This document shows positions 1,524-21,745 of a stretch of 39,750 nucleotides of DNA, piece after piece; within the stretch, counting starts at the first letter, position 1, and every line of letters starts with the position of its first letter. Position numbers and translations under genes: made by a program. Origin of the DNA: a virus; the IMG/VR virus record IMGVR_UViG_3300025131_000122, positions 1 through 39,750 of that record, one strand, 5' to 3'. A model generated the notes under the pieces. That model was not told the origin of the DNA. It searched no databases and saw nothing but the letters and a program-made list of their open reading frames with translations.

Positions 1524-1760
1524 CTACCTCGCTGAATAGTAGAGAAGCTCATCGTCTTCTTCTTGTGATGTTCTGTCATCGTTTTTCTGAACGTACTTGC
1601 CTAGATCCTCGGCAGGCAAATGGATAAAATGTGTGAACTTCATAGATACGCCACCCATCGTAAACTCTTGAACTCCGTTTGATTTTAGAACCTTCAATAG
1701 CGCATCTAGTTTACTAGGGTTTTCTAGCATTTGTAAACAGACATCTTCTTTTTTTAACAT
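1524..1760 (-). CDS. Hypothetical small protein coupled to the large terminase
   Basis: A 78-residue acidic protein beginning MLKKEDVCLQ. The preferred start is ATG 1760-1758, because the terminase stop and this start share a base (TAATG), a typical translational-coupling arrangement. An upstream ATG at 1778 would overlap the terminase. The first half looks helical (LENPSKLDALLKVLKS); the C-terminus is Asp/Glu-rich. No family is recognised. The position between terminase and portal suggests a packaging-related protein. Confidence 0.78.
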   Translation of the reverse strand: MLKKEDVCLQMLENPSKLDALLKVLKSNGVQEFTMGGVSMKFTHFIHLPAEDLGKYVQKNDDRTSQEEDDELLYYSAR

Positions 1761-3217
1761 TATAGTGACTCCCACCAATCCATGCGTTTTTCGCGTTCAA
1801 TTTTCTCACACTCGGCTACTTCCCAATCATCCCATATCTTTTCCCAATATTCTTTTGTCCCATAGCGTGGATTAAATGGCAATTCTTCGCTACAATAGTG
1901 TTTGGACTCACGCCACGCATACAAAAAGGCATCTGATAAATGGTTTTCAAAACGCTTATCCTCAGTTTTCTGATTTTCAGCCCACTGCAAGAGGTTCCAT
2001 TCCCCGGCGATGTCAGAGTCAGGTGGGACTTTGACGAAGCCGGAGCGCAGATCGCTGTTCAGAAGTTCAATGTAGCTAAATTTGTCATGTTTGCTTGCGG
2101 CGATGACGGGGATATTATAACGGACACGGAACTCCTCCGCGATACTCTTGCCGAGGCCGCCCGTATCCATTACGATACGAGTAAATTTATAAGTTTTCCC
2201 AAGCTCCTCGATGTGCTGCGCGATCTCTGCCGGAATCATCCCGACACGTTTCATTTCGTAGACGAGATAGAGAGTAGGAAGATACCGATTAAAGGCACAA
2301 ACAGTAAAGGCAGATGCATCGTTGAAACCCAAATCCACGCCAAGTATGTAGTCGAAGTCATAATCCAAAGTGGGGAGGGTGTCGTAAAGATTAATAGCCT
2401 CGTCGAACTTATAAACAAGACTGTCTGCGGAGCGCACCCACCTCCCGCACCACTCGCGGAGATAAACAGGATGCTCGTTGTCCCACCCCCTACGCTTCAT
2501 GCGCTTGTCTAGCCAATCCTGAGCGTGGGGGATATGGGGGTTGTCCAAGATAGTCCAATAATGATTACTATAATCCGAATTGGGTTCTGTCGTTGCACGG
2601 TGAAAGATTCCCGTACAGGCAGCGTTGGGTGTCCCAATGAGGCACATGGTTCCATCATGGTCTATCAAGGTTGGCTCCAACACCTCTTCGACCAACTCAT
2701 CCATATGTGGTCCAAAGGAAGCGCACTCATCAATGATGATTAGTACAAATGCGCTTCCTCGAAGCTTGTCGATGTCGGCTTGGTCGTTCGCTGCCGTCAG
2801 GTAGATGACGCTCCCGTTGGGGAGATATGCCGTCAGTTCGGCATTGTTGAACTTGATGTTCATACTGTATTGACGGTCTAGCTGTTTGAGCTTGGGCCAC
2901 ATGACACGCTTTGCATTGATGCGTGTAAGGGCAATATAGGCTGCTTCGCTCTCAGGGTTCTCTAGGGCCTGTTTTAGGAGATATACGGCACAAGAGTGGG
3001 TTTTTCCTGCTCGGCGGCTGCAGAGGGCTGTCTTGAGCTTTGCAGGGTCACTTATGAATGCTACCTGCCTGTCAAAGCAGTCCTTGAAGAATTGGGTGGA
3101 TCTCTCGGTGACCTGAACACTTTTGTCCTTCTTTGGAGTTTCCCCAAAACGCTTGATGTACTCCTTTACGAGTTCACGCGCCTCAATGGGGTTCATTTGG
3201 TCGGACTTTTTACCCAT
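1760..3217 (-). CDS. terL: Terminase large subunit (packaging ATPase and nuclease)
   Basis: A 485-residue motor that translocates DNA into the prohead and cuts the concatemer. ATPase domain: Walker A variant SRRAGKTH at residues 67-74, Walker B LIIIDE at 159-164 with catalytic Glu 164, and coupling motif GTP at 195-197. RNase H-like nuclease domain: GVDLG (Asp 295), VMDTGG (Asp 351) and HLSDA (Asp 429) supply the three metal-binding acidic residues. Length and motif order are those of a full-length terminase. It overlaps the upstream small gene by 25 bp and is coupled to the downstream one by TAATG. The packaging type (cos or pac) cannot be decided by eye. Confidence 0.97.
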   Translation of the reverse strand: MGKKSDQMNPIEARELVKEYIKRFGETPKKDKSVQVTERSTQFFKDCFDRQVAFISDPAKLKTALCSRRAGKTHSCAVYLLKQALENPESEAAYIALTRINAKRVMWPKLKQLDRQYSMNIKFNNAELTAYLPNGSVIYLTAANDQADIDKLRGSAFVLIIIDECASFGPHMDELVEEVLEPTLIDHDGTMCLIGTPNAACTGIFHRATTEPNSDYSNHYWTILDNPHIPHAQDWLDKRMKRRGWDNEHPVYLREWCGRWVRSADSLVYKFDEAINLYDTLPTLDYDFDYILGVDLGFNDASAFTVCAFNRYLPTLYLVYEMKRVGMIPAEIAQHIEELGKTYKFTRIVMDTGGLGKSIAEEFRVRYNIPVIAASKHDKFSYIELLNSDLRSGFVKVPPDSDIAGEWNLLQWAENQKTEDKRFENHLSDAFLYAWRESKHYCSEELPFNPRYGTKEYWEKIWDDWEVAECEKIEREKRMDWWESL

Positions 3218-4371: not shown

Positions 4372-4783
4372 CTTTTGCATTCTTAATCATTTCTTCAATC
4401 TCACTGTCACCAATCTTAAGAGTCTTAAGCGCATCTTTGATTCGCCTCTTGAGATCTTTATCATCCATCCTATCAATCTCACTCAGCCCGCGAACGTCCC
4501 CCTCTAGCTTCACTAGCCTGTCGAGGGAAGTAATGAGCCGGGACAAGTGCTTTGAACGGTTCTCGTCCAAGCATTCGGATTCTACACCTATAGACCCCGC
4601 TAGCTTGGTCATCTCCATATGAACTAATGATAGAAAGTCCGATATGAGTCCTTGCGAACTAGGGATAACCTTAGCGACCTGCATCTTATGACGCATTGAG
4701 TCACGAACTAGCTTATCGTCGGTGTACTCTTCCTTATTCTTTTCCGGCAGGGGGACTAATTGGTGCTTGTTGCGCTTCTGCAT
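4364..4783 (-). CDS. Candidate terminase small subunit
   Basis: A 139-residue, strongly helical, charged protein. The segment LSRLITSLDRLVKLEGDVRGLSE (about residues 80-103) resembles the central oligomerisation helices of small terminases, and the C-terminal third is acidic/basic helix. The position, four genes ahead of terL in the same operon, also fits. It overlaps the preceding gene by 50 bp. I cannot see a clear helix-turn-helix, so the assignment is by context and shape. The neighbouring small proteins at 4734-4979 or 3193-3423 are alternatives. Confidence 0.5.
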   Translation of the reverse strand: MQKRNKHQLVPLPEKNKEEYTDDKLVRDSMRHKMQVAKVIPSSQGLISDFLSLVHMEMTKLAGSIGVESECLDENRSKHLSRLITSLDRLVKLEGDVRGLSEIDRMDDKDLKRRIKDALKTLKIGDSEIEEMIKNAKDI

Positions 4784-4979
4784 CGGGTCCTGCCTCTAAT
4801 TGGGTGACAACCATCATGGCAACGTCCAAACCATCAATTTGGGAGTCCAATGCGCCCAATTGCTTGCTCAAACGGTCAATCTGATGTGTTAAGGCCCCTC
4901 GTTGGGTGCATAACTCCGTATACTTGTTATTAATGGCCTCTTTGCCTTCATTGCCCTCAGTGGGTGTATTATTCTCCAT
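4734..4979 (-). CDS. Small coiled-coil protein, first gene of the late operon
   Basis: An 81-residue protein from ATG 4979 behind AAAGGACTGAATT. Residues about 20-60 form a heptad-patterned helix (LTHQIDRLSKQLGALDSQIDGLD). The C-terminus is Ala/Pro/Gln-rich and disordered-looking. It is the first gene after the candidate late promoter at 5080-5065, with a leader of roughly 75 nt. The function is unknown. A DNA-recognition partner of the terminase or a late regulator are both conceivable from the position. Confidence 0.7.
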   Translation of the reverse strand: MENNTPTEGNEGKEAINNKYTELCTQRGALTHQIDRLSKQLGALDSQIDGLDVAMMVVTQLEAGPDAEAQQAPISPPAGKE

Positions 4980-5064
4980 AATTCAGTCCTTTCTTGTTTA
5001 ATGTCATGTTTTTGGCTCCAAAAAATAGAATGTGTTTTCCGATTGTGTCATTACCTGTGTGAGA

Positions 5065-5080
5065 TGCAATCGTAATGCCA
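5065..5080 (-). promoter_or_regulatory. Sigma-54 (-24/-12) promoter of the late operon
   Basis: On the minus strand the sequence is TGGCAT-TACGA-TTGCA, preceded by T. The RpoN consensus is TGGCACG-N4-TTGC(A/T). The GG and GC doublets have the required 10-base separation. The start of transcription would fall near 5054, giving a 75-nt leader to the first late gene at 4979. I see no strong sigma-70 promoter here. The match is visible; use by RpoN is inference. Confidence 0.7.
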
Positions 5081-5107
5081 ATTCGAGGGGGGGTGCATCG
5101 GCTTTTT

Positions 5108-5126
5108 GATATTGAGAATCATTATC
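5108..5126. promoter_or_regulatory. Fur-box-like operator 1
   Basis: GATATTGAGAATCATTATC matches the 19-bp Fur consensus GATAATGATAATCATTATC at 17 of 19 positions. In the 7-1-7 model (TGATAAT-N-ATTATCA) it reads TGAGAAT-C-ATTATCA, one mismatch. It lies 28 bp upstream of the -24 element of the late promoter. Confidence 0.6.
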
Positions 5127-5177
5127 ATAGTGCCAAGCCCCTGATATCATTGAATATTCTGCATCCCGCGTCAACTT

Positions 5178-5196
5178 GATAATGAGAATCGTTATC
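5178..5196. promoter_or_regulatory. Fur-box-like operator 2
   Basis: GATAATGAGAATCGTTATC matches the 19-bp Fur consensus at 17 of 19 positions. It lies about 100 bp upstream of the late promoter and 52 bp from the first box, which is roughly five helical turns. Confidence 0.6.
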
Positions 5197-5229
5197 ATAA
5201 CGGATATGCCATTTCTCATCTGCGACAAG

Positions 5230-5243
5230 GCGCGATATCGCGC
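5230..5243. promoter_or_regulatory. Perfect 14-bp palindrome GCGCGATATCGCGC
   Basis: A perfect inverted repeat 150-165 bp upstream of the late -24 element. That is the usual distance for an enhancer bound by a sigma-54 activator. It could be an operator for a host activator or a phage dimer. The cognate protein cannot be named from the sequence. Confidence 0.45.
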
Positions 5244-5252
5244 TACTGACAA

Positions 5253-5337
5253 TGGCACGATTTTTGATTTGGCATGGTTCTTGATTTGGCACGGTTTTTG
5301 ACTTGGCATGCTTTTTTATTTGGCACGGATCTTGCAT
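5253..5337 (+). repeat. Five 17-bp tandem repeats of a -24-like element
   Basis: TGGCAC/T begins at 5253, 5270, 5287, 5304 and 5321, exactly 17 bp apart. Units include TGGCACGATTTTTGATT, TGGCATGGTTCTTGATT and TGGCACGGTTTTTGACT. Each reads as a sigma-54 -24 element followed at the right distance by TTGA, TTTA or, only in the last copy, the canonical TTGCA. The array could be tandem or decoy RpoN sites. A 17-bp period is also typical of replication iterons, so an origin is the main alternative. Confidence 0.8.
5321..5336 (+). promoter_or_regulatory. Perfect sigma-54 (-24/-12) match, rightward
   Basis: TGGCACGGATCTTGCA, preceded by T, fits the consensus YTGGCACG-N4-TTGCW at every conserved base. 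Transcription would start near 5347 and run rightwards into a gene-free stretch, then antisense to the DUF7227 gene. No protein start fits, so a small or antisense RNA is the likely product if it is active. Confidence 0.55.
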
Positions 5338-5340
5338 TAT

Positions 5341-5356
5341 TGCAGGTTCCATGCCA
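5341..5356 (-). promoter_or_regulatory. Near-match sigma-54 element facing the rightward one
   Basis: On the minus strand TGGCAT-GGAAC-CTGCA has one mismatch in the -12 box. With the element at 5321-5336 it forms a large imperfect inverted repeat (13 of 16 bases match across arms, 4-base centre). It could be a divergent promoter pair, or one palindromic protein site. Confidence 0.35.
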
Positions 5357-5683
5357 ATTTGAGCGTGGTTTGGGTTGGGCTTGAGAGTTTTAGGGCTTAT
5401 TTTGGTGGGATTAAATGTTTTGAGATGGCATGTTCTGTGCTTAACGCAACGCATTATCAGGCTCTTTTCTAGCTTGTTTTGGGTGATTGCTACAACCCTT
5501 AACCTTGAATAAGCTTTACATAGCCCTTAGCGCCTTGTCAAGCTCTTTATAGCCTAGACCTAAACCCTACCATTCAAAAGTATCAAAACGCCGCTATAGG
5601 GCTGCCATAGGCATTAGAATCGATTTAGCTTGTTTGGGTGTGTTTTGAAGGCTTGCTTGAAGTCTTATACGCTGAACGCAAGA

Positions 5684-5703
5684 AAAGCCCTAAAAAGGGC
5701 TTT
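5684..5703 (-). terminator. Intrinsic terminator of the DUF7227 operon
   Basis: The palindrome AAAGCCCTAAAAAGGGCTTT gives an 8-bp stem with a 4-base loop. On the minus strand it is followed by TTCTTG, a short U-rich run. It lies 26 bp past the stop of the leftward gene ending at 5729. Confidence 0.75.
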
Positions 5704-5728
5704 AAATGCTTTAAGATATGGGTTTAAG

Positions 5729-6592
5729 TTAGGCTGCTAACATAAACCGTGGTTTATCGTTGACCATGAATAAGGCTCTTTTATCATGTTGCCGAGTGAA
5801 GCCTAGCAAGTCGTTTTTCGCCTTTGAACCTTTAGGCTTTAGAACGCCGATTAAGCCAATTTTAGCCCTTGGATCAATTGGCCGATAATCGTGTGAATCC
5901 GCATCATAGGTTAAGAAACCCTCAATGCTTCGCGGAATTCCTTCATCCTTTTCATAAGCAATGCACATTGCCACGTTTACCCCTAAACCTAGTGCTTCGC
6001 GGTACTCAGCCTTATTGCGTTCTTTAGCGCTAAAGGTTAAATAATAGTTGGGGGTAGAATCTCTATTTTTAGCCCATGCTCTAACTCGCTCAATGTTTGC
6101 AGTGTAATCATAAAACATAATATTGGGAAATAGCGCTAAAAATTCTTGAGCTAAACCCATATCACTTACAGTATCTAGTCTCGCGGCCGCTAACATTCCA
6201 AGCTTTTTGGCTCTTTTCTCGAATGCTGCTAGTTCGTGGTATAAAAGAGCCTTAAACGCTATTGGCTCGGCATGATAAAACCATGTTCTTCTTGCACGTG
6301 CAACCATTGCCGAGAGCATTCGACCCCTACCGCTATGTGGCCCTAAGCAAAGCGCTAAGCATGCCCTTGTGGCCCATGGGCAGATATTTTTGAAAATGCT
6401 AGCATCGAGCGTCAAGCCAATTGCTTTTAGAATAGCATATGCGCTTTTACTTGGTGCAAGCATCAAAGGCGCAGTTAATACGCCGATTGTCTCGCTTAGC
6501 ATGGTTTTAGGTTGGGACACTGTTAACAGGCGCTTAACCCCATAAACACCCGCACGCTTTAAAGCTTGTTTTTTGGATAAAAGTTTTTCCAT
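5729..6592 (-). CDS. DUF7227-type phage protein with CPxATxxCxxxC motif
   Basis: A 287-residue protein from ATG 6592 behind AAGGGGAATATT. Residues 71-90 carry C71-P-W-A-T-R-A-C78-L-A-L-C82...SGRG. Later motifs are RLDTVSD (138-144), FYDYT (160-164) and a YYLTFSAKERN stretch (183-193), followed by a C-terminal Gly-rich part. I recognise this pattern from a widespread family of phage and plasmid proteins of unknown function (DUF7227, name from memory). The three cysteines could bind metal or an Fe-S cluster. It is the last gene of the three-gene leftward operon and is followed by a terminator. The operon looks more A/T-biased at third codon positions than the structural genes. Confidence 0.8.
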   Translation of the reverse strand: MEKLLSKKQALKRAGVYGVKRLLTVSQPKTMLSETIGVLTAPLMLAPSKSAYAILKAIGLTLDASIFKNICPWATRACLALCLGPHSGRGRMLSAMVARARRTWFYHAEPIAFKALLYHELAAFEKRAKKLGMLAAARLDTVSDMGLAQEFLALFPNIMFYDYTANIERVRAWAKNRDSTPNYYLTFSAKERNKAEYREALGLGVNVAMCIAYEKDEGIPRSIEGFLTYDADSHDYRPIDPRAKIGLIGVLKPKGSKAKNDLLGFTRQHDKRALFMVNDKPRFMLAA

Positions 6593-6602
6593 AATATTCC
6601 CC

Positions 6603-6845
6603 TTATAGCCCTAAAAGCTTATTGATAAAGTTTACGTGGTTTTTTATAATTGCTTGTTTGCCCTTGTCTAAGTCTATGGTTATCCCTATATTCTTAGCTT
6701 TAGTGATTGCACGCCTTTCCCTAATAAGCTCTTCGTTTTTTTTCATTGCATCCGTTACGGATTTGGTGTCCATGCTCGGCTCACAATTCACTAGCATGTT
6801 TGCTAAGTTAGCTTGGTTTATTAGTATTTCGTTGGTGTTTTTCAT
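6603..6845 (-). CDS. Hypothetical 80-residue protein of the control operon
   Basis: Starts at ATG 6845 behind AAGGAAAACAATAAA and ends 10 bp before the DUF7227 gene, with which it must be co-transcribed. It is largely helical, with a charged middle (MKKNEELIRERRAITKAKN) that could be a short coiled coil. There is no Cys motif, membrane segment or clear helix-turn-helix. Function unknown. Confidence 0.72.
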   Translation of the reverse strand: MKNTNEILINQANLANMLVNCEPSMDTKSVTDAMKKNEELIRERRAITKAKNIGITIDLDKGKQAIIKNHVNFINKLLGL

Positions 6846-6865: not shown

Positions 6866-7132
6866 TTATAAATTTTGGTTGATTGTTTCAGTGTCAACGT
6901 CGTCAAGCAGGTTTAAAGCAACTTGAATAACAGCTTTTAACATTAATGAGGAAGACCTAGTGTTTATAGATTTTGGCGAAGCATGGTCTAAGTTAGCGTG
7001 CGCGGATAACTTTTTTAGTTGCCTAGACACCCCAACTATATCGTCGCAAACTTCGTCCTGATTGCTCGCGTAATACTGTGACGCTCTTAGTTGAGCAATC
7101 AAATCATTTTCAAAGTCGTTATTTTTACTCAT
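6866..7132 (-). CDS. Hypothetical 88-residue acidic protein, first gene of the control operon
   Basis: Starts at ATG 7132 behind AAAGGATTAAAAAG, about 35 nt downstream of the transcription start predicted from the sigma-54 element at 7193-7178. It is acidic and mostly helical, ending in ALNLLDDVDTETINQNL. No family is recognised. Being the promoter-proximal gene of a divergently placed operon, it is a candidate early regulator, but I see no DNA-binding motif. Confidence 0.72.
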   Translation of the reverse strand: MSKNNDFENDLIAQLRASQYYASNQDEVCDDIVGVSRQLKKLSAHANLDHASPKSINTRSSSLMLKAVIQVALNLLDDVDTETINQNL

Positions 7133-7177: not shown

Positions 7178-7193
7178 TGCAAACACTATGCCA
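7178..7193 (-). promoter_or_regulatory. Sigma-54 (-24/-12) promoter of the three-gene leftward operon
   Basis: On the minus strand TGGCAT-AGTGT-TTGCA has the required 10-base gap between GG and GC. The transcript would start near 7167, 35 nt before ATG 7132. The only departures from the core consensus are T for C at the end of the -24 box and A before it. Confidence 0.62.
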
Positions 7194-7362: not shown

Positions 7363-7394
7363 GGTCGTTTGTGCAGTGTGACAATTTGCATCTT

Positions 7395-7448
7395 GAGAAT
7401 GATTCTCATTATTGTTATCAGGTGATAATGAGAATGATTATCGTTATC
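7395..7448. promoter_or_regulatory. Cluster of Fur-box-like operators
   Basis: TGAGAATGATTCTCA (7394-7408) is a perfect 7-1-7 palindrome of the Fur type. GATAATGAGAATGATTATC (7424-7442) matches the 19-bp Fur consensus at 17 of 19. An overlapping site shifted by 6 bp (7430-7448) matches 16 of 19. Overlapping GATAAT-like hexamers offset by six are the usual form of extended Fur sites. The cluster lies 210-270 bp upstream of the early promoter and about 200-250 bp upstream of the leftward one. Confidence 0.62.
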
Positions 7449-7468: not shown

Positions 7469-7579
7469 GGCGCGTAAGAAACAATCCCTATTTGTTCCAA
7501 TGGAAATATCCGTGGAAACCAAATCCCGCCCAAAAGATCGACCTGATTTTATTTCAAAATTAAGAATCGAAACAAAGCA

Positions 7580-7618
7580 GGGTGGGTTTTGCCCCACGGG
7601 TGGGTTTTATTCCCCCAC
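7580..7618. repeat. GC-box repeat, copy C
   Basis: GGGTGGGTTTTGCCCCAC followed by GGGTGGGTTTTATTCCCCCAC. It contains two near-identical GGGTGGGTTTT half-units and complementary C runs, so it can form alternative hairpins. It is related to the 7249-7362 copies and lies 45-80 bp upstream of the early -24 element. Confidence 0.5.
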
Positions 7619-7660
7619 TTACATTATTTGTAAGTCATTGATTTTATTGTGGCAAAAAGT

Positions 7661-7676
7661 TGGCACAAGACTTGCA
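7661..7676 (+). promoter_or_regulatory. Sigma-54 (-24/-12) promoter of the early operon
   Basis: TGGCAC-AAGAC-TTGCA, preceded by T, carries the full -24 and -12 cores with correct spacing. Transcription would start near 7687, about 23 nt before the first early start codon (7710) and just ahead of its AGAGGAGG ribosome binding site. No -10/-35 pair of comparable quality is visible nearby. Confidence 0.72.
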
Positions 7677-7709: not shown

Positions 7710-7934
7710 ATGAGTATGTCAACAAGTGAATGCAGAGTTAGGTGTTGTGAGAGCTGCCACGAATCAATGGAATACTGTGCCAAGCTAATTTTTATGACTG
7801 AAGACGTTTCAGATATTCTTGGTGTTCCTTGTCGAGAGGCAGAACGCTTTTTAGCGGTAAATAAAAAGCACATAGAGCAAGCAATGAGGGATGCCGGATG
7901 GAAAGCCATCAAAGAGCTTAAAGAGGAGGTTTAA
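7710..7934 (+). CDS. Small Cys-rich protein, first early gene
   Basis: A 74-residue protein starting at ATG 7710, chosen because AGAGGAGG lies 7 bases upstream and because earlier in-frame sequence is promoter DNA. The N-terminal 25 residues hold C-R-V-R-C-C-E-S-C-H-E-S and another Cys, a likely zinc-binding knuckle. The C-terminal part looks helical (VNKKHIEQAMRDAGWKAIKELKEEV). It shares the CESCHES motif with the next gene. Small zinc-ribbon proteins made first are often host-takeover factors, but the function here is unknown. Confidence 0.78.
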   Translation: MSMSTSECRVRCCESCHESMEYCAKLIFMTEDVSDILGVPCREAERFLAVNKKHIEQAMRDAGWKAIKELKEEV

Positions 7935-8818: not shown

Positions 8819-9367
8819 ATGGACAATGAAATACTAACCACCCTCACAGCGGCCATAGCCGAACTGACAACAAGCGTCAAAGAATTGACGGTAGTGATGG
8901 AACCTACTAAAAGAAAAGTAAGACAAAAGAAAAGTATAGATGTTAATAATAATATAGATAATAATAATATATATAATAATATATATAGCAAGGATCGTGC
9001 CAAAAAAGACCCCGATTTGTCCTTCGATATTCGCAGTGTTGTAGCTCATTATCGGACATATCACCCCAAAGCTCTCAGGACGCTCCTCAAGAAGAGCAAG
9101 ACCTATTTAGGGGTAAAGGGTCGGTTGAATGACGGATACACCGTGACGGAGCTTGTATCGGCTATAGATGGCATGCACAAGTCACCTTTCCACCTCGGAC
9201 AGAACGAACAGAAAACTCGGTACCTGTCTTTGGAGCTTTGCATGCGTAATGCAGAGCAGGTGGAACGGTTTATATCTATCGACCGCGACGAAGTGGTCCC
9301 CGATGTTGGGGTCAACACATTAAAAACGGTCAATGCAGCAAAGGAGTGGTTAAAAAATGGAGTATAA
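8819..9367 (+). CDS. Replisome-organiser-like replication protein
   Basis: A 182-residue protein from ATG 8819 behind GGGAG. Residues 1-35 form a helix, and 42-57 an Asn/Ile/Tyr linker encoded by an AT-only tract. The C-terminal domain (about 65-165: VVAHYRTYHPKAL, RLNDGYTVTELVSAIDGMHKSPFHLG, EQVERFI) resembles the C-terminal domain of phage DnaD/O-type replication initiators. Such proteins bind the origin and recruit the host helicase through a loader. A loader candidate lies in the same operon (12554-13309). The typical winged-helix N-terminal domain is not evident, so the protein is short for the family. Confidence 0.6.
   Translation: MDNEILTTLTAAIAELTTSVKELTVVMEPTKRKVRQKKSIDVNNNIDNNNIYNNIYSKDRAKKDPDLSFDIRSVVAHYRTYHPKALRTLLKKSKTYLGVKGRLNDGYTVTELVSAIDGMHKSPFHLGQNEQKTRYLSLELCMRNAEQVERFISIDRDEVVPDVGVNTLKTVNAAKEWLKNGV
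8943..8987. other. AT-only tract inside the replication gene (candidate origin)
   Basis: Forty-five base pairs with a single G (8957), made of AAT and AT repeats. It encodes the Asn/Ile/Tyr linker of the replication protein. Lambda and related phages place their unwinding element inside the initiator gene, so this is a reasonable origin candidate. I see no clear iterons beside it. Confidence 0.45.
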
Positions 9368-18430: not shown

Positions 18431-21400
18431 TTATGTTTGAATGCCGATGATGGTTATGCTGAAGGGCAGGTCAAAGTACCACGCATTGGTCGCGCTTACC
18501 GAGCCTAGTGTAACCCATATTTTTTTCCCGTTGGCAGCGTCCCTCCATGCCGTAACATTTGTAATCGCATTTATTGTTGGATAAGCCAAATTTGATATAA
18601 TAGAATTGACAGTTGCCTGAATTGAAACTGTGTCGTCTACTGCCTCGTCCAACCAAATGGTATAATACCCTATACCTTGGTATGAGTTGCCACTTAAAGC
18701 CATAGCCACTTCGTCGATATTGTAGTGATCATCGGCAACATCAACTGTTGACCAAGGTACAGCGAGGGCATCGGGTGTGAAGAATCCCGTTGCAATTATA
18801 CTGTTATTACATACTAAGCTTTGGAATGTGCTAAGGCCCGAAGGTTCCTCGTCCTTCGCTGAAAAAACTAATTCTGCATCATCTAATCTGCTCCCATCCC
18901 CCACCTCAACATACTTTTTGGAACCCGTACCTATGTCAGACCACAGGGTGAGCATTCTATGCACATCTCCATCGGCAGCGTTGCTTCCAAAGAACATCGA
19001 AGCCGAACCGCCCGCGCCCGATGTGTTGTAGGCACACAAGACAAGTGGGTCTAGTGCATTCGCACAATCATGTGCCAATATTGTCGCATTATCCACGCTC
19101 CCTGCGGGCAGGTCCACGGGCAGTGTTCCTATTCCGCAGGTCAGAGTCGGACCTGAATATAGTGAGGTGCTAGGTCCACCTGTTTGGTTGGGATACATTC
19201 TTAATAGAGTACCACCATCACCTGTTCTAGCTTGCCCGATAGATATGGCGGGTGTTGTTGTAGTGGCAGATTCTCCAATGAGAAGGTCACCCTTCGCCTT
19301 AAGGGAACTAGACTCTGAACTACCGCATGTTATATTTTGATATTGGTCTATGAGTATGGCAGTCGCGCTGTTGTTATCTATATAGACACTGCCTGTACCC
19401 TCCTGCTTTATTTGCAGTTCCCCTGTCGAACCCGCATCCCTCTCTATCTTGGCGCTAAACGCTCCTGCCCCTAGAGCGGGTTCAGATATAAACATTATAG
19501 TAGATTTAGCACTTGATACGGTCCTCCCCATACCCAACGCAAAAAGCGCACCTGTACCCGTGGCATCATCGGGCCTTACCGTGACAATTTGATTGGTGTC
19601 AATCGAAAGAGCCTTTGTAGCGTTGGTGTGAAGTTCTATTGCCCCCGCTAATGCATAGGCCCCTGCGCCCGGTACGGTTTCTATTTTTAATGGACCCGTA
19701 CTTCCTTGATGAGAAATTATAAATTCTCCCGTACTGTATGAAGGTGTGTCCCCAACTAATCCCGGTTGCCTCCATACTCTAGCCTCAATAGGTTGTAAGC
19801 CTCCTCCTGCCACAAAGTTTAGAACTTTATTACCCGGCGATGAACTTGCTGACCCTATGTATATGCTGCCCGCTGATGTTGCACTATTGTTAACAACAAG
19901 GTTGCCCTGCATTGTTATATCCTGAGAGCTATTTATGTTCATAGCCAATGCAGAGTTGGTGTTCAACTCTATTATGCCCGTAGCACCCAAGGCATTAATG
20001 GCAACGTTACCCGGTGTGGTTGCAGGCGAGGTGAGAACGGGGCCGCTACCGTCAGTAGCATACACGCTGCCCCATAGATCACCTGTTACGTCACCTGTTA
20101 CATTACCCGTTACATTGCCCGTTACATCACCTGTAAGGTTGCCTGTCACATCTCCCGTCAGGTCACCTGTTACATTACCTGTTACGTCACCCGTTACATT
20201 TCCTGTAAGGTTTCCTGTTACGTCACCTGTTACGTCACCTGTTACATTTCCTGTAAGATCTCCTGTTACGTCACCCGTTACATTTCCTGTAAGGTTGCCC
20301 GTTATGTCACCCGTTACAGGACCAACGAATGAAGCCGCTGTTACGGTGTCGAAGAACTCAGTGTCCCCCCAAATATCTATGCCGCCATCGTGCTTGAGTT
20401 TGATGGCATCGTTGAATGAGGGAACCATGTTTCCTGATGCAGTTATTATGAGATCTCTGTCTAAAGGAACCCCCAATGCGGTTTCAGGGAATAGCCCAAT
20501 GACCGAGCATCTTGCAGTGAACGGTCCCGTGGACTGTGGGATTGTACCACCTGCTGTAGTGTCGGGCCAAACATATTGCCCTAATGCTCCCTTGACTTCT
20601 GCACTAAAAGCCAACACGGACCTGTTTCTTGCCTCGAAAATCCTTATGCCACGGTTAAGCGACTCAGGCGCGACCTCTAGAGTCCAAGGCGCGACTTGGG
20701 GTTCTAGTTCCTCCCCAACACGCATTGTCATTGCGTGACTTGAATCTAAAATACAAGCCCATTGGGTATTGTTCGCACCAAGAAAAAGCCTAGAGTCGTT
20801 CGTTGCTGCCATGATCTCGCTAAAAGCGCTGTTAAAAGGAACAAAGGAACGCGCAGATGTAATTCTGAGAACGGAGTCTACGACCCCGAGATTAGTAGTA
20901 TGTTCTAGGATGACGTTGCATCCGTCACTAGTAGTCGGGCCGGGAGGGGCGGCGTGCCTGAATTTTGCCATATCGTCACCACTCGTCATTCTTAGCATTT
21001 CAGTGCCTCCGAATGAGAGTGTTCTATCTACTGCAACGCGACTGATATCAGTGTTATAACTAGCAGTGCTAGTCTCGTTTGTTACATCATAGGTTAGGGT
21101 GGAGGCAACATCGGATGTGAAGATTATTTTTCGCTCTGAGTTGAGTCCTCCATCTGCCCTATTTGTCAGGGACAGCATGTGCCTGCCTTCAGGCGGGGTT
21201 AACATGGCAGATCCGTGGAGTATGTCTACTGAACCCGTGGTGGAATCGAAGGTCATACCTCGAAAACTAGCTGCCGCACCACCCTGTATCTTGCTTATGT
21301 CCTTAAGCTCATGCACACCCACGATGTCCGTACCTGAACGAACGAGTACATCGTTGTCATCACCTATGGCCCCTATAGGCAGCGAGGCGGGGCCTGACGA

Positions 21401-21745
21401 TTCGGTCATGGCAACAACTGACGGGTTAGGATAGGTGCCGCTAAGATCTCCACCCGCCGAGCCACCCGGAGGGGTCCCCGGTGAGCCAACAATATCCCCA
21501 CCACTCCTTATGAGGGTTTCACCATCCGCGATAGCGCCAATGACTAGGTTCGTTCCTGCGCCCGTTTCCTTCATGCCCGACACGTTGGGGTCAGGGTAGG
21601 TGCCGCTTAAGTCACCACCTGCCGCGCCGATAGGAGCACCACCCTCGTTGATGCCGAAGAGGTCCACGGTTCTTATGCGAAACTTCTTTGTCCCGGTAGT
21701 AAGCTTTAGGGTCTTATCACCTGATGTCAGCTTGAATGTCGGCAT
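18431..21745 (-). CDS. Long tail fibre protein
   Basis: A 1104-residue fibre. ATG 21745 overlaps the upstream stop (TAATG). N-terminal residues 1-30 (FKLTSGDKTLKLTTGTKKFRIR) likely attach to the tail. Two copies of a recognised fibre repeat, AGGDLSGTYPDPNV and AGGDLSGTYPNPSV, follow within residues 40-125. Residues about 476-556 are 20 tetrapeptide units of the PVTG/NVTG/DLTG type, and the C-terminal half is Ser/Gly/Thr-rich beta sequence. No chaperone or hydrolase domain is evident. It follows the ejection genes and precedes the fibre-tip modules. Confidence 0.85.
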   Translation of the reverse strand: MPTFKLTSGDKTLKLTTGTKKFRIRTVDLFGINEGGAPIGAAGGDLSGTYPDPNVSGMKETGAGTNLVIGAIADGETLIRSGGDIVGSPGTPPGGSAGGDLSGTYPNPSVVAMTESSGPASLPIGAIGDDNDVLVRSGTDIVGVHELKDISKIQGGAAASFRGMTFDSTTGSVDILHGSAMLTPPEGRHMLSLTNRADGGLNSERKIIFTSDVASTLTYDVTNETSTASYNTDISRVAVDRTLSFGGTEMLRMTSGDDMAKFRHAAPPGPTTSDGCNVILEHTTNLGVVDSVLRITSARSFVPFNSAFSEIMAATNDSRLFLGANNTQWACILDSSHAMTMRVGEELEPQVAPWTLEVAPESLNRGIRIFEARNRSVLAFSAEVKGALGQYVWPDTTAGGTIPQSTGPFTARCSVIGLFPETALGVPLDRDLIITASGNMVPSFNDAIKLKHDGGIDIWGDTEFFDTVTAASFVGPVTGDITGNLTGNVTGDVTGDLTGNVTGDVTGDVTGNLTGNVTGDVTGNVTGDLTGDVTGNLTGDVTGNVTGNVTGDVTGDLWGSVYATDGSGPVLTSPATTPGNVAINALGATGIIELNTNSALAMNINSSQDITMQGNLVVNNSATSAGSIYIGSASSSPGNKVLNFVAGGGLQPIEARVWRQPGLVGDTPSYSTGEFIISHQGSTGPLKIETVPGAGAYALAGAIELHTNATKALSIDTNQIVTVRPDDATGTGALFALGMGRTVSSAKSTIMFISEPALGAGAFSAKIERDAGSTGELQIKQEGTGSVYIDNNSATAILIDQYQNITCGSSESSSLKAKGDLLIGESATTTTPAISIGQARTGDGGTLLRMYPNQTGGPSTSLYSGPTLTCGIGTLPVDLPAGSVDNATILAHDCANALDPLVLCAYNTSGAGGSASMFFGSNAADGDVHRMLTLWSDIGTGSKKYVEVGDGSRLDDAELVFSAKDEEPSGLSTFQSLVCNNSIIATGFFTPDALAVPWSTVDVADDHYNIDEVAMALSGNSYQGIGYYTIWLDEAVDDTVSIQATVNSIISNLAYPTINAITNVTAWRDAANGKKIWVTLGSVSATNAWYFDLPFSITIIGIQT
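20081..20320 (-). repeat. Twenty 12-bp repeats coding (N/D)(V/L)TG in the tail fibre
   Basis: Exactly 240 bp = 20 units of 12 bp (on the plus strand variants of ACCTGTTACGTC). They encode PVTG, DITG and then 18 units of NVTG, DVTG, NLTG or DLTG. The run is bounded by DLWG at 20069-20080. Neighbouring units differ by one or two bases, so slippage could change unit number in 4-residue steps without breaking the frame. Confidence 0.9.

Follow-up and report, generated by a model that had tools for sequence, protein, structure and literature searches.

Tandem and facing sigma-54-like elements in a phage control region: a predicted docking platform for host RpoN polymerase

Setting and layout of the array

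The window, meaning the whole stretch of DNA analyzed here, is a virus record of 39,750 bases whose end and start join into one open frame holding the portal gene; this frame reading across the ends makes a circularly permuted genome probable. Non-coding DNA surrounds the array, with a leftward packaging-side operon (start at 4979) on one side and a GP88-family gene on the other. Window positions 4700 to 6700 had no nucleotide matches among cultured phages, the array used as a nucleotide query retrieved only short spurious or DnaA-box matches, and host assignment via TerL or capsid gave distant matches only.

1760-3217: TerL gene
5065-5080, minus strand: predicted sigma-54 promoter TTGGCATTACGATTGCA, lying upstream of a leftward gene with its start at 4979; one consensus position off; kept in the relative L019
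5108-5126, palindromic: Fur-box-like palindrome GATATTGAGAATCATTATC, 17/19 to the Fur consensus
5178-5196, palindromic: Fur-box-like palindrome GATAATGAGAATCGTTATC, 17/19 to the Fur consensus
5253, plus strand: array copy 1, TGGCAY, TGGCACGATTTTTGATT, -12 reads TTGAT
5270, plus strand: array copy 2, TGGCAY, TGGCATGGTTCTTGATT, -12 reads TTGAT
5287, plus strand: array copy 3, TGGCAY, TGGCACGGTTTTTGACT, -12 reads TTGAC
5304, plus strand: array copy 4, TGGCAY, TGGCATGCTTTTTTATT, -12 reads TTTAT
5253-5320, plus strand: copies 1 to 4 together, strong -24 box TGGCAY and degenerate -12 (TTGA/TTTA); predicted capture sites rather than start sites
5321-5336, plus strand: array copy 5, TGGCACGGATCTTGCAT; perfect sigma-54 promoter TTGGCACGGATCTTGCAT, predicted start ~5347
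5341-5357, minus strand: facing sigma-54 element TTGGCATGGAACCTGCA, near-perfect, predicted start ~5330
5347-5703, plus strand: candidate untranslated RNA or leader of ~357 nt, following copy 5
5684-5703, plus strand: terminator-like hairpin AAAGCCC-TAAAAA-GGGCTTT, weak T tail on the plus strand

A preliminary description of this DNA had placed TGGCAC/T at the five positions listed, with a fixed 17-bp period and the canonical TTGCA in the last copy alone. Both statements hold: the 17-bp step is exact between all five TGGCAY copies (TRF reports a period of 17 with 79% matches), and TTGCA is confined to copy 5. When compared with TGGCAYR-N4-TTGCW, including the -24 GG and the -12 GC, copy 5 matches at 12/12 consensus positions and the facing element at 11/12. 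Copies 1 to 4 read TTGA, TTGA, TTGA, and TTTA where TTGC is needed and are not classed as promoters because the -12 GC element is missing. The facing element (5357-5341) is identical to the arm at 5320-5336 at 14/17 positions, and with copy 5 it forms a 38-bp palindrome (5320-5357) with 17-bp arms and a 4-bp center. The imperfect palindrome described earlier is thus confirmed, with its extent amended from a facing element at 5356-5341 and 16-bp arms. The predicted starts of this unit, 5347 rightward and 5330 leftward, point outward and lie 17 bp apart.

The window contains eight matches to TGGCAYN5TTG, compared with 0.86 in dinucleotide shuffles. In 200 first-order Markov genomes, checked at every period between 10 and 40 bp, evenly spaced TGGCAY copies never formed a run of three or more; two was the maximum. 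The same array is present in a 99.9% identical contig (L004). A chance or low-complexity artifact, to which the T-rich spacers and nothing else would point, is vanishingly improbable; shuffles and recurrence refute it, and a chance origin of the array is excluded.

Three sites at gene heads (5080-, 7193-, and 7661+) are near-exact to exact matches to the sigma-54 consensus. The first is listed above; the others belong to a second control region.

7178-7193, minus strand: predicted sigma-54 promoter TGGCATAGTGTTTGCA of the leftward operon starting at 7132; equivalent in L002 at 729+
7394-7448, palindromic: second Fur-box-like palindrome pair (7394 and 7424-7448), midway between the divergent promoters 7193- and 7661+
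7661-7676, plus strand: predicted sigma-54 promoter TTGGCACAAGACTTGCA, predicted start ~7687, with a ribosome-binding site and an ATG at 7710

The predicted start of 7661+ lies 23 nt before the ATG, and the site has equivalents in L002 (321-) and L023 (4364-). A sigma-70 reading of 7661 (TTGGCA-N18-TATAAA) was dropped, as it fails at the other gene-head sites. Fur-like palindromes, of which 0.01 are expected in the window, separate divergent sigma-54 promoters in both of its control regions; they were not found in L002 or L023, and L002 has unrelated sequence in place of the 7394-7448 segment. As for the activator palindromes or IHF site that may accompany a sigma-54 promoter upstream, these Fur-like palindromes were observed, and an IHF-like site at 7643 only. 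Two further elements were observed: a G-run element CGAGGGGGGGTGCATCGGCTTTTT at 5085-5105, upstream of the packaging-side genes and kept in most relatives, which is possibly a cos site; and a 36/48-bp tandem repeat array (20078-20318) inside the tail fiber gene (18431-21745, minus strand).

Sigma-54 identity and recurrence in other phages

Half-site positions outside the search pattern follow sigma-54 promoters: position 7 is R in 98% and the first -12 base is T in 78%. Among TTGGCAY sites near arrays that were not used by the pattern, 138/152 have TGC at -12, compared with 35/173 elsewhere. Within one 20-contig lineage, divergence was 7.4% at consensus positions, 24.9% in the spacers within sites, and 21.9% in flanks; that is, consensus positions evolve three times slower than spacers, and spacers this free to vary speak against a longer palindrome recognized by a different protein. 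In 21 virus records, matches to the sigma-54 pattern were numerous, compared with two in all for the backward-read control. Taken together, independent motif logos, conservation, and recurrence strongly support the prediction that the units are real sigma-54 elements, and phages as different as these probably share no binding protein except one of the host.

The 17-bp tandem pattern occurs in 11 viral contigs and at four loci in 257 Gb of bacterial and archaeal genomes, where we estimate from the pattern that ~2 would arise by chance. When the gap may range from 0 to 8, it occurs in 21 viral contigs at periods of 15 to 19 bp, with none at 20 to 23. The facing pattern was retrieved from 54 viral contigs in ~27 DNA-level lineages (contigs merged when sharing an alignment of at least 300 bp), with a spacing of mainly 31 to 33 bp, and from 0/398 bacterial genomes of one phylum; by our estimate from 21 effective bases, fewer than one facing pair is expected in the viral collection. 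Facing gaps of 3, 4, 5, 6, 7, and 8 number 14, 25, 15, 3, 1, and 0, respectively, which shows a constraint on spacing; gaps of 1 to 2 are also present in a few lineages. The facing distances center on three helical turns, with a periodicity test over all distances that was not clean. Many contigs contain 5 to 13 sites within a few hundred bases; L060 has a 46- to 47-bp repeat of facing pairs, and L038 has five tandem copies. At 7575-7611, the unrelated contig L006 has an exact 22-mer TGGCACGATTTTTGATTTGGCA in common with copies 1 and 2, except for the base after each TGGCAY. Searches of the open-access literature found neither sigma-54 arrays nor facing sigma-54 pairs described in phages.

The gene context of these units is mixed. 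ORFs of at least 100 aa flanking facing units are divergent in 22 cases, co-directional in 22, and convergent in 2 (by lineage, ~8, ~14, and 1 to 2); thus, a purely divergent-operon role is only partly supported. A 335-kb phage (L099) has 24 sigma-54 sites strewn among small genes over ~20 kb, six of which are facing pairs with a 34-bp step. These sites are possibly the sigma-54 regulon of a jumbo phage, and the facing pairs and single sites between small genes favor promoter use there. In a 22-member lineage, the promoter for the packaging gene is of sigma-70 type, and the array, accompanied by DnaA boxes, is separate from it, which favors a hub, decoy, or origin role there, as considered below. 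The array-adjacent gene of L081 has its own sigma-70-type promoter, and there is no sigma-54 site elsewhere on that contig. The same module may be put to different uses by different phages.

Rearrangement among relatives and alternative readings

L002 (97% TerL identity) is homologous to the window from copy 5 on, and it keeps the perfect promoter and an identical facing partner. Upstream of copy 5, two further facing sigma-54 pairs replace the four degenerate copies, giving three facing pairs in total; copies 1 to 4 are therefore not conserved even in this relative. L023 (85% TerL identity) has about twelve sites in both orientations within ~430 bp, directly before early genes. The array is lost in L019 (96% TerL identity), and L024 lacks a sigma-54 cluster as well as any convincing site. 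The cluster and the gene-head promoters are both present in the window, L002, and L023, and neither is present in L024. Some relatives appear to retain the function of a cluster of sigma-54 sites but not its arrangement. The preliminary description had named a variable period and sequence in relatives as grounds for abandoning its interpretation; taken literally, such variation exists, in that site arrangement varies while sigma-54 identity does not.

Conservation with L002 has a sharp boundary at copy 5 and runs through non-coding DNA to the terminator-like hairpin, with 37 differences over ~366 nt. The candidate RNA region (5347-5703) contains no convincing gene and has no Rfam matches, and the hairpin at its end was not listed by the promoter/terminator scan. 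Folding gave z scores of -1.6 on the plus strand and +0.7 on the minus strand; covariation, drawn from two distinct sequences only, gave three double changes on the plus strand and two on the minus strand, which does not distinguish between the strands. The early suggestions included staggered promoters for an untranslated RNA. An RNA promoter fits copy 5, given the conservation boundary in L002, but staggering is disfavored because copies 1 to 4 are without the -12 GC.

An origin of replication was another early suggestion, with the copies acting as iterons for the phage replication protein.

8819-9367, plus strand: replication initiation protein gene (phrog_16167, E 3e-10), followed by exonuclease and Sak4-like genes
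8875-8890: palindrome CGTCAAAGAATTGACG inside the replication gene
8935-8988: AT-rich tract inside the replication gene
8987-9002, minus strand: perfect sigma-54 site TTGGCACGATCCTTGCT that lies antisense within the replication gene and points into the AT-rich tract

Iterons are expected to adjoin the replication gene and to be conserved with it. The array lies 3.5 kb from that gene, is absent from L019, and is rebuilt in L002 and L023; a separate palindrome and AT-rich tract belong to the gene itself, and the motif also turns up in phages whose genes are unrelated. Rep iterons are thus unlikely. A broader version holds that the copies only resemble sigma-54 sites and serve a phage-encoded initiator, terminase, or repressor as iterons or operators, which would suit tandem and palindromic repeats in a terminase-proximal intergenic region and a record (that of L058) with both ends in its array. 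We consider it very unlikely, as the same composite motif is present in ~27 lineages, which probably have no protein in common except a host one, the sigma-54 match extends to positions not used for retrieval, the spacer is unconstrained, and no phage RpoN-like (sigma-54) DNA-binding domain was found in 42 records. The two ends of the L058 record (G019), designated L101 and L102, overlap with differences, and one of them is without a segment holding two DnaA boxes and two sigma-54 sites; array length thus varies within the population or between genome copies.

Boxes for other host regulators were counted within 500 bp of arrays and compared with Markov controls. DnaA (36 observed versus 0.97 expected), Fur core (21 versus 0.27), LexA (7 versus 0.13), and IHF (18 versus 5) boxes were in excess. 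NtrC sites showed no enrichment (19 versus 20), and NrdR-like boxes (5 versus 0.7) were poor matches from one lineage. Three DNA-level lineages (the L007, L034, and 22-member groups) account for the DnaA boxes, which are absent at most arrays; LexA boxes are confined to one lineage, whereas Fur boxes occur in several, among them the window, the L007 group, and L056. LexA-like, DnaA, Fur-like, and sigma-54 sites occur together in one intergenic region of L014 (4834-5510).

These counts bear on a further reading, in which sigma-54 holoenzyme or its transcripts open or prime the phage replication origin. Strict DnaA boxes are concentrated near arrays (two elsewhere), and the perfect sigma-54 site abuts the AT-rich tract of the replication gene in the window and three relatives (9002- is conserved in L023, L029, and L030 and absent in L031). 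The replication gene with its palindrome and AT-rich tract is likely a lambda-like origin, and sigma-54 transcription from 9002- may open it, which does not make the array an iteron set. This putative origin is 3.5 kb from the window's array, the array region has no DnaA box, and GC skew tracks gene direction and nothing beyond that. An origin-associated role for the array is accordingly improbable in our estimate.

Alternatively, the phage may multiply sites as a decoy or sponge, titrating host RpoN, Fur, DnaA, and LexA as its copy number rises and thereby silencing or derepressing regulons. Arrays of 8 to 13 overlapping sites in both orientations cannot all be promoters, the Fur, DnaA, and LexA boxes are in excess, and the arrays of the 22-member lineage stand beside a sigma-70-type promoter for the packaging gene, with no sigma-54 site elsewhere on the L081 contig. 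However, a fixed facing geometry would be superfluous in a pure sponge, yet the spacing is tightly constrained; the window's array has one full promoter only and would be a weak sponge; and of the DnaA, LexA, and Fur boxes, Fur alone is present at the window's array. We therefore regard a decoy role as doubtful. Somewhat less doubtful, though still tentative, is a non-coding "host-regulator hub" in many unrelated phages, in which RpoN sites arrayed in a fixed geometry, frequently alongside DnaA, Fur, or LexA boxes, would capture or titrate host global regulators, so that the phage would read out or rewire host physiology by DNA alone, without an encoded protein.

Predicted docking of host polymerase and comparison with known systems

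We predict from sequence, at roughly even odds, that the array is a docking platform for host RpoN (sigma-54) RNA polymerase in the main control region of the phage. An RpoN decoy or loading platform had been among the early suggestions; the loading platform is the best fit for copies 1 to 4, with their strong -24 and broken -12, and the early suggestions as a whole are partly supported. Bases at or next to the -12 GC element help to form a stable closed complex (PMC3844500), so copies 1 to 4, without the -12 GC, should not start RNA. Unable to initiate, they would hold or recapture scarce holoenzyme and pass it to copy 5. Secondary sigma-54 sites have been proposed to provide faster promoter search or a higher local holoenzyme concentration (PMC3844500). 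A usable -12 is confined to copy 5 and its facing partner, and 5320-5357 is thus predicted to be an interlocked bidirectional promoter unit. Neither the window nor 41 other records encode an enhancer-binding protein or AAA+ sigma-54 activator, so activation must come from the host, whose enhancer-binding protein would fire copy 5. Rightward, the unit would then yield a conserved untranslated RNA or leader; in the opposite direction, its transcript would run toward the leftward packaging genes, and Fur boxes between divergent sigma-54 promoters could add iron-dependent control. Counting against a docking array are the lack of conservation of copies 1 to 4 in L002, the absence of the array from L019, the occurrence of facing units outside divergent gene pairs, the sigma-70-type promoter of L081, the dependence on a host activator, and RNA covariation that favors neither strand.

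Phages are generally thought to rely on the housekeeping sigma factor or on one of their own. Sequence evidence from ~27 phage lineages points to deliberate, repeated use of host sigma-54 in facing arrays of fixed geometry. If the sites bind RpoN polymerase, phages could read the nitrogen, envelope-stress, or iron state of the host or, alternatively, take polymerase or regulators from it. Interlocked bidirectional sigma-54 promoters and -24-only capture sites would then also offer sharp tests in sigma-54 biology.

Iteron origins and the lambda O-gene origin contain regular short repeats, as does this array, and the AT-rich tract of this phage likewise sits inside its replication gene; unlike in those origins, the array is distant from that gene and its motif is common to unrelated phages. 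Sigma-54 promoters usually occur singly, one per gene, with an enhancer upstream. Copy 5 and the gene-head sites match their -24/-12 consensus TTGGCAYRN4TTGCW (5080- being one position off), whereas the phage has overlapping tandem and facing copies, most of which, in the window, are without a usable -12.

Bacterial bidirectional promoters, described by Warman, Grainger, and colleagues (PMC12825309), similarly consist of interlocked opposite promoters with mutually exclusive polymerase binding. Their commonest distance between starts is 18 bp; predicted starts in the phages are 16 to 18 bp apart, and 5320-5357, judged from its predicted starts, has opposed promoters at about this distance, in a geometry found in all 54 facing-pattern contigs. 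Theirs are housekeeping promoters with a common -10 element, whereas the phage version is sigma-54. Finally, non-promoter sigma-54 sites of Salmonella and E. coli (PMC3844500, PMC4591121), many of them unlinked to a gene start, have likewise been proposed to aid promoter search or holoenzyme concentration; those sites are single and scattered, whereas in phages they are packed into regular arrays.
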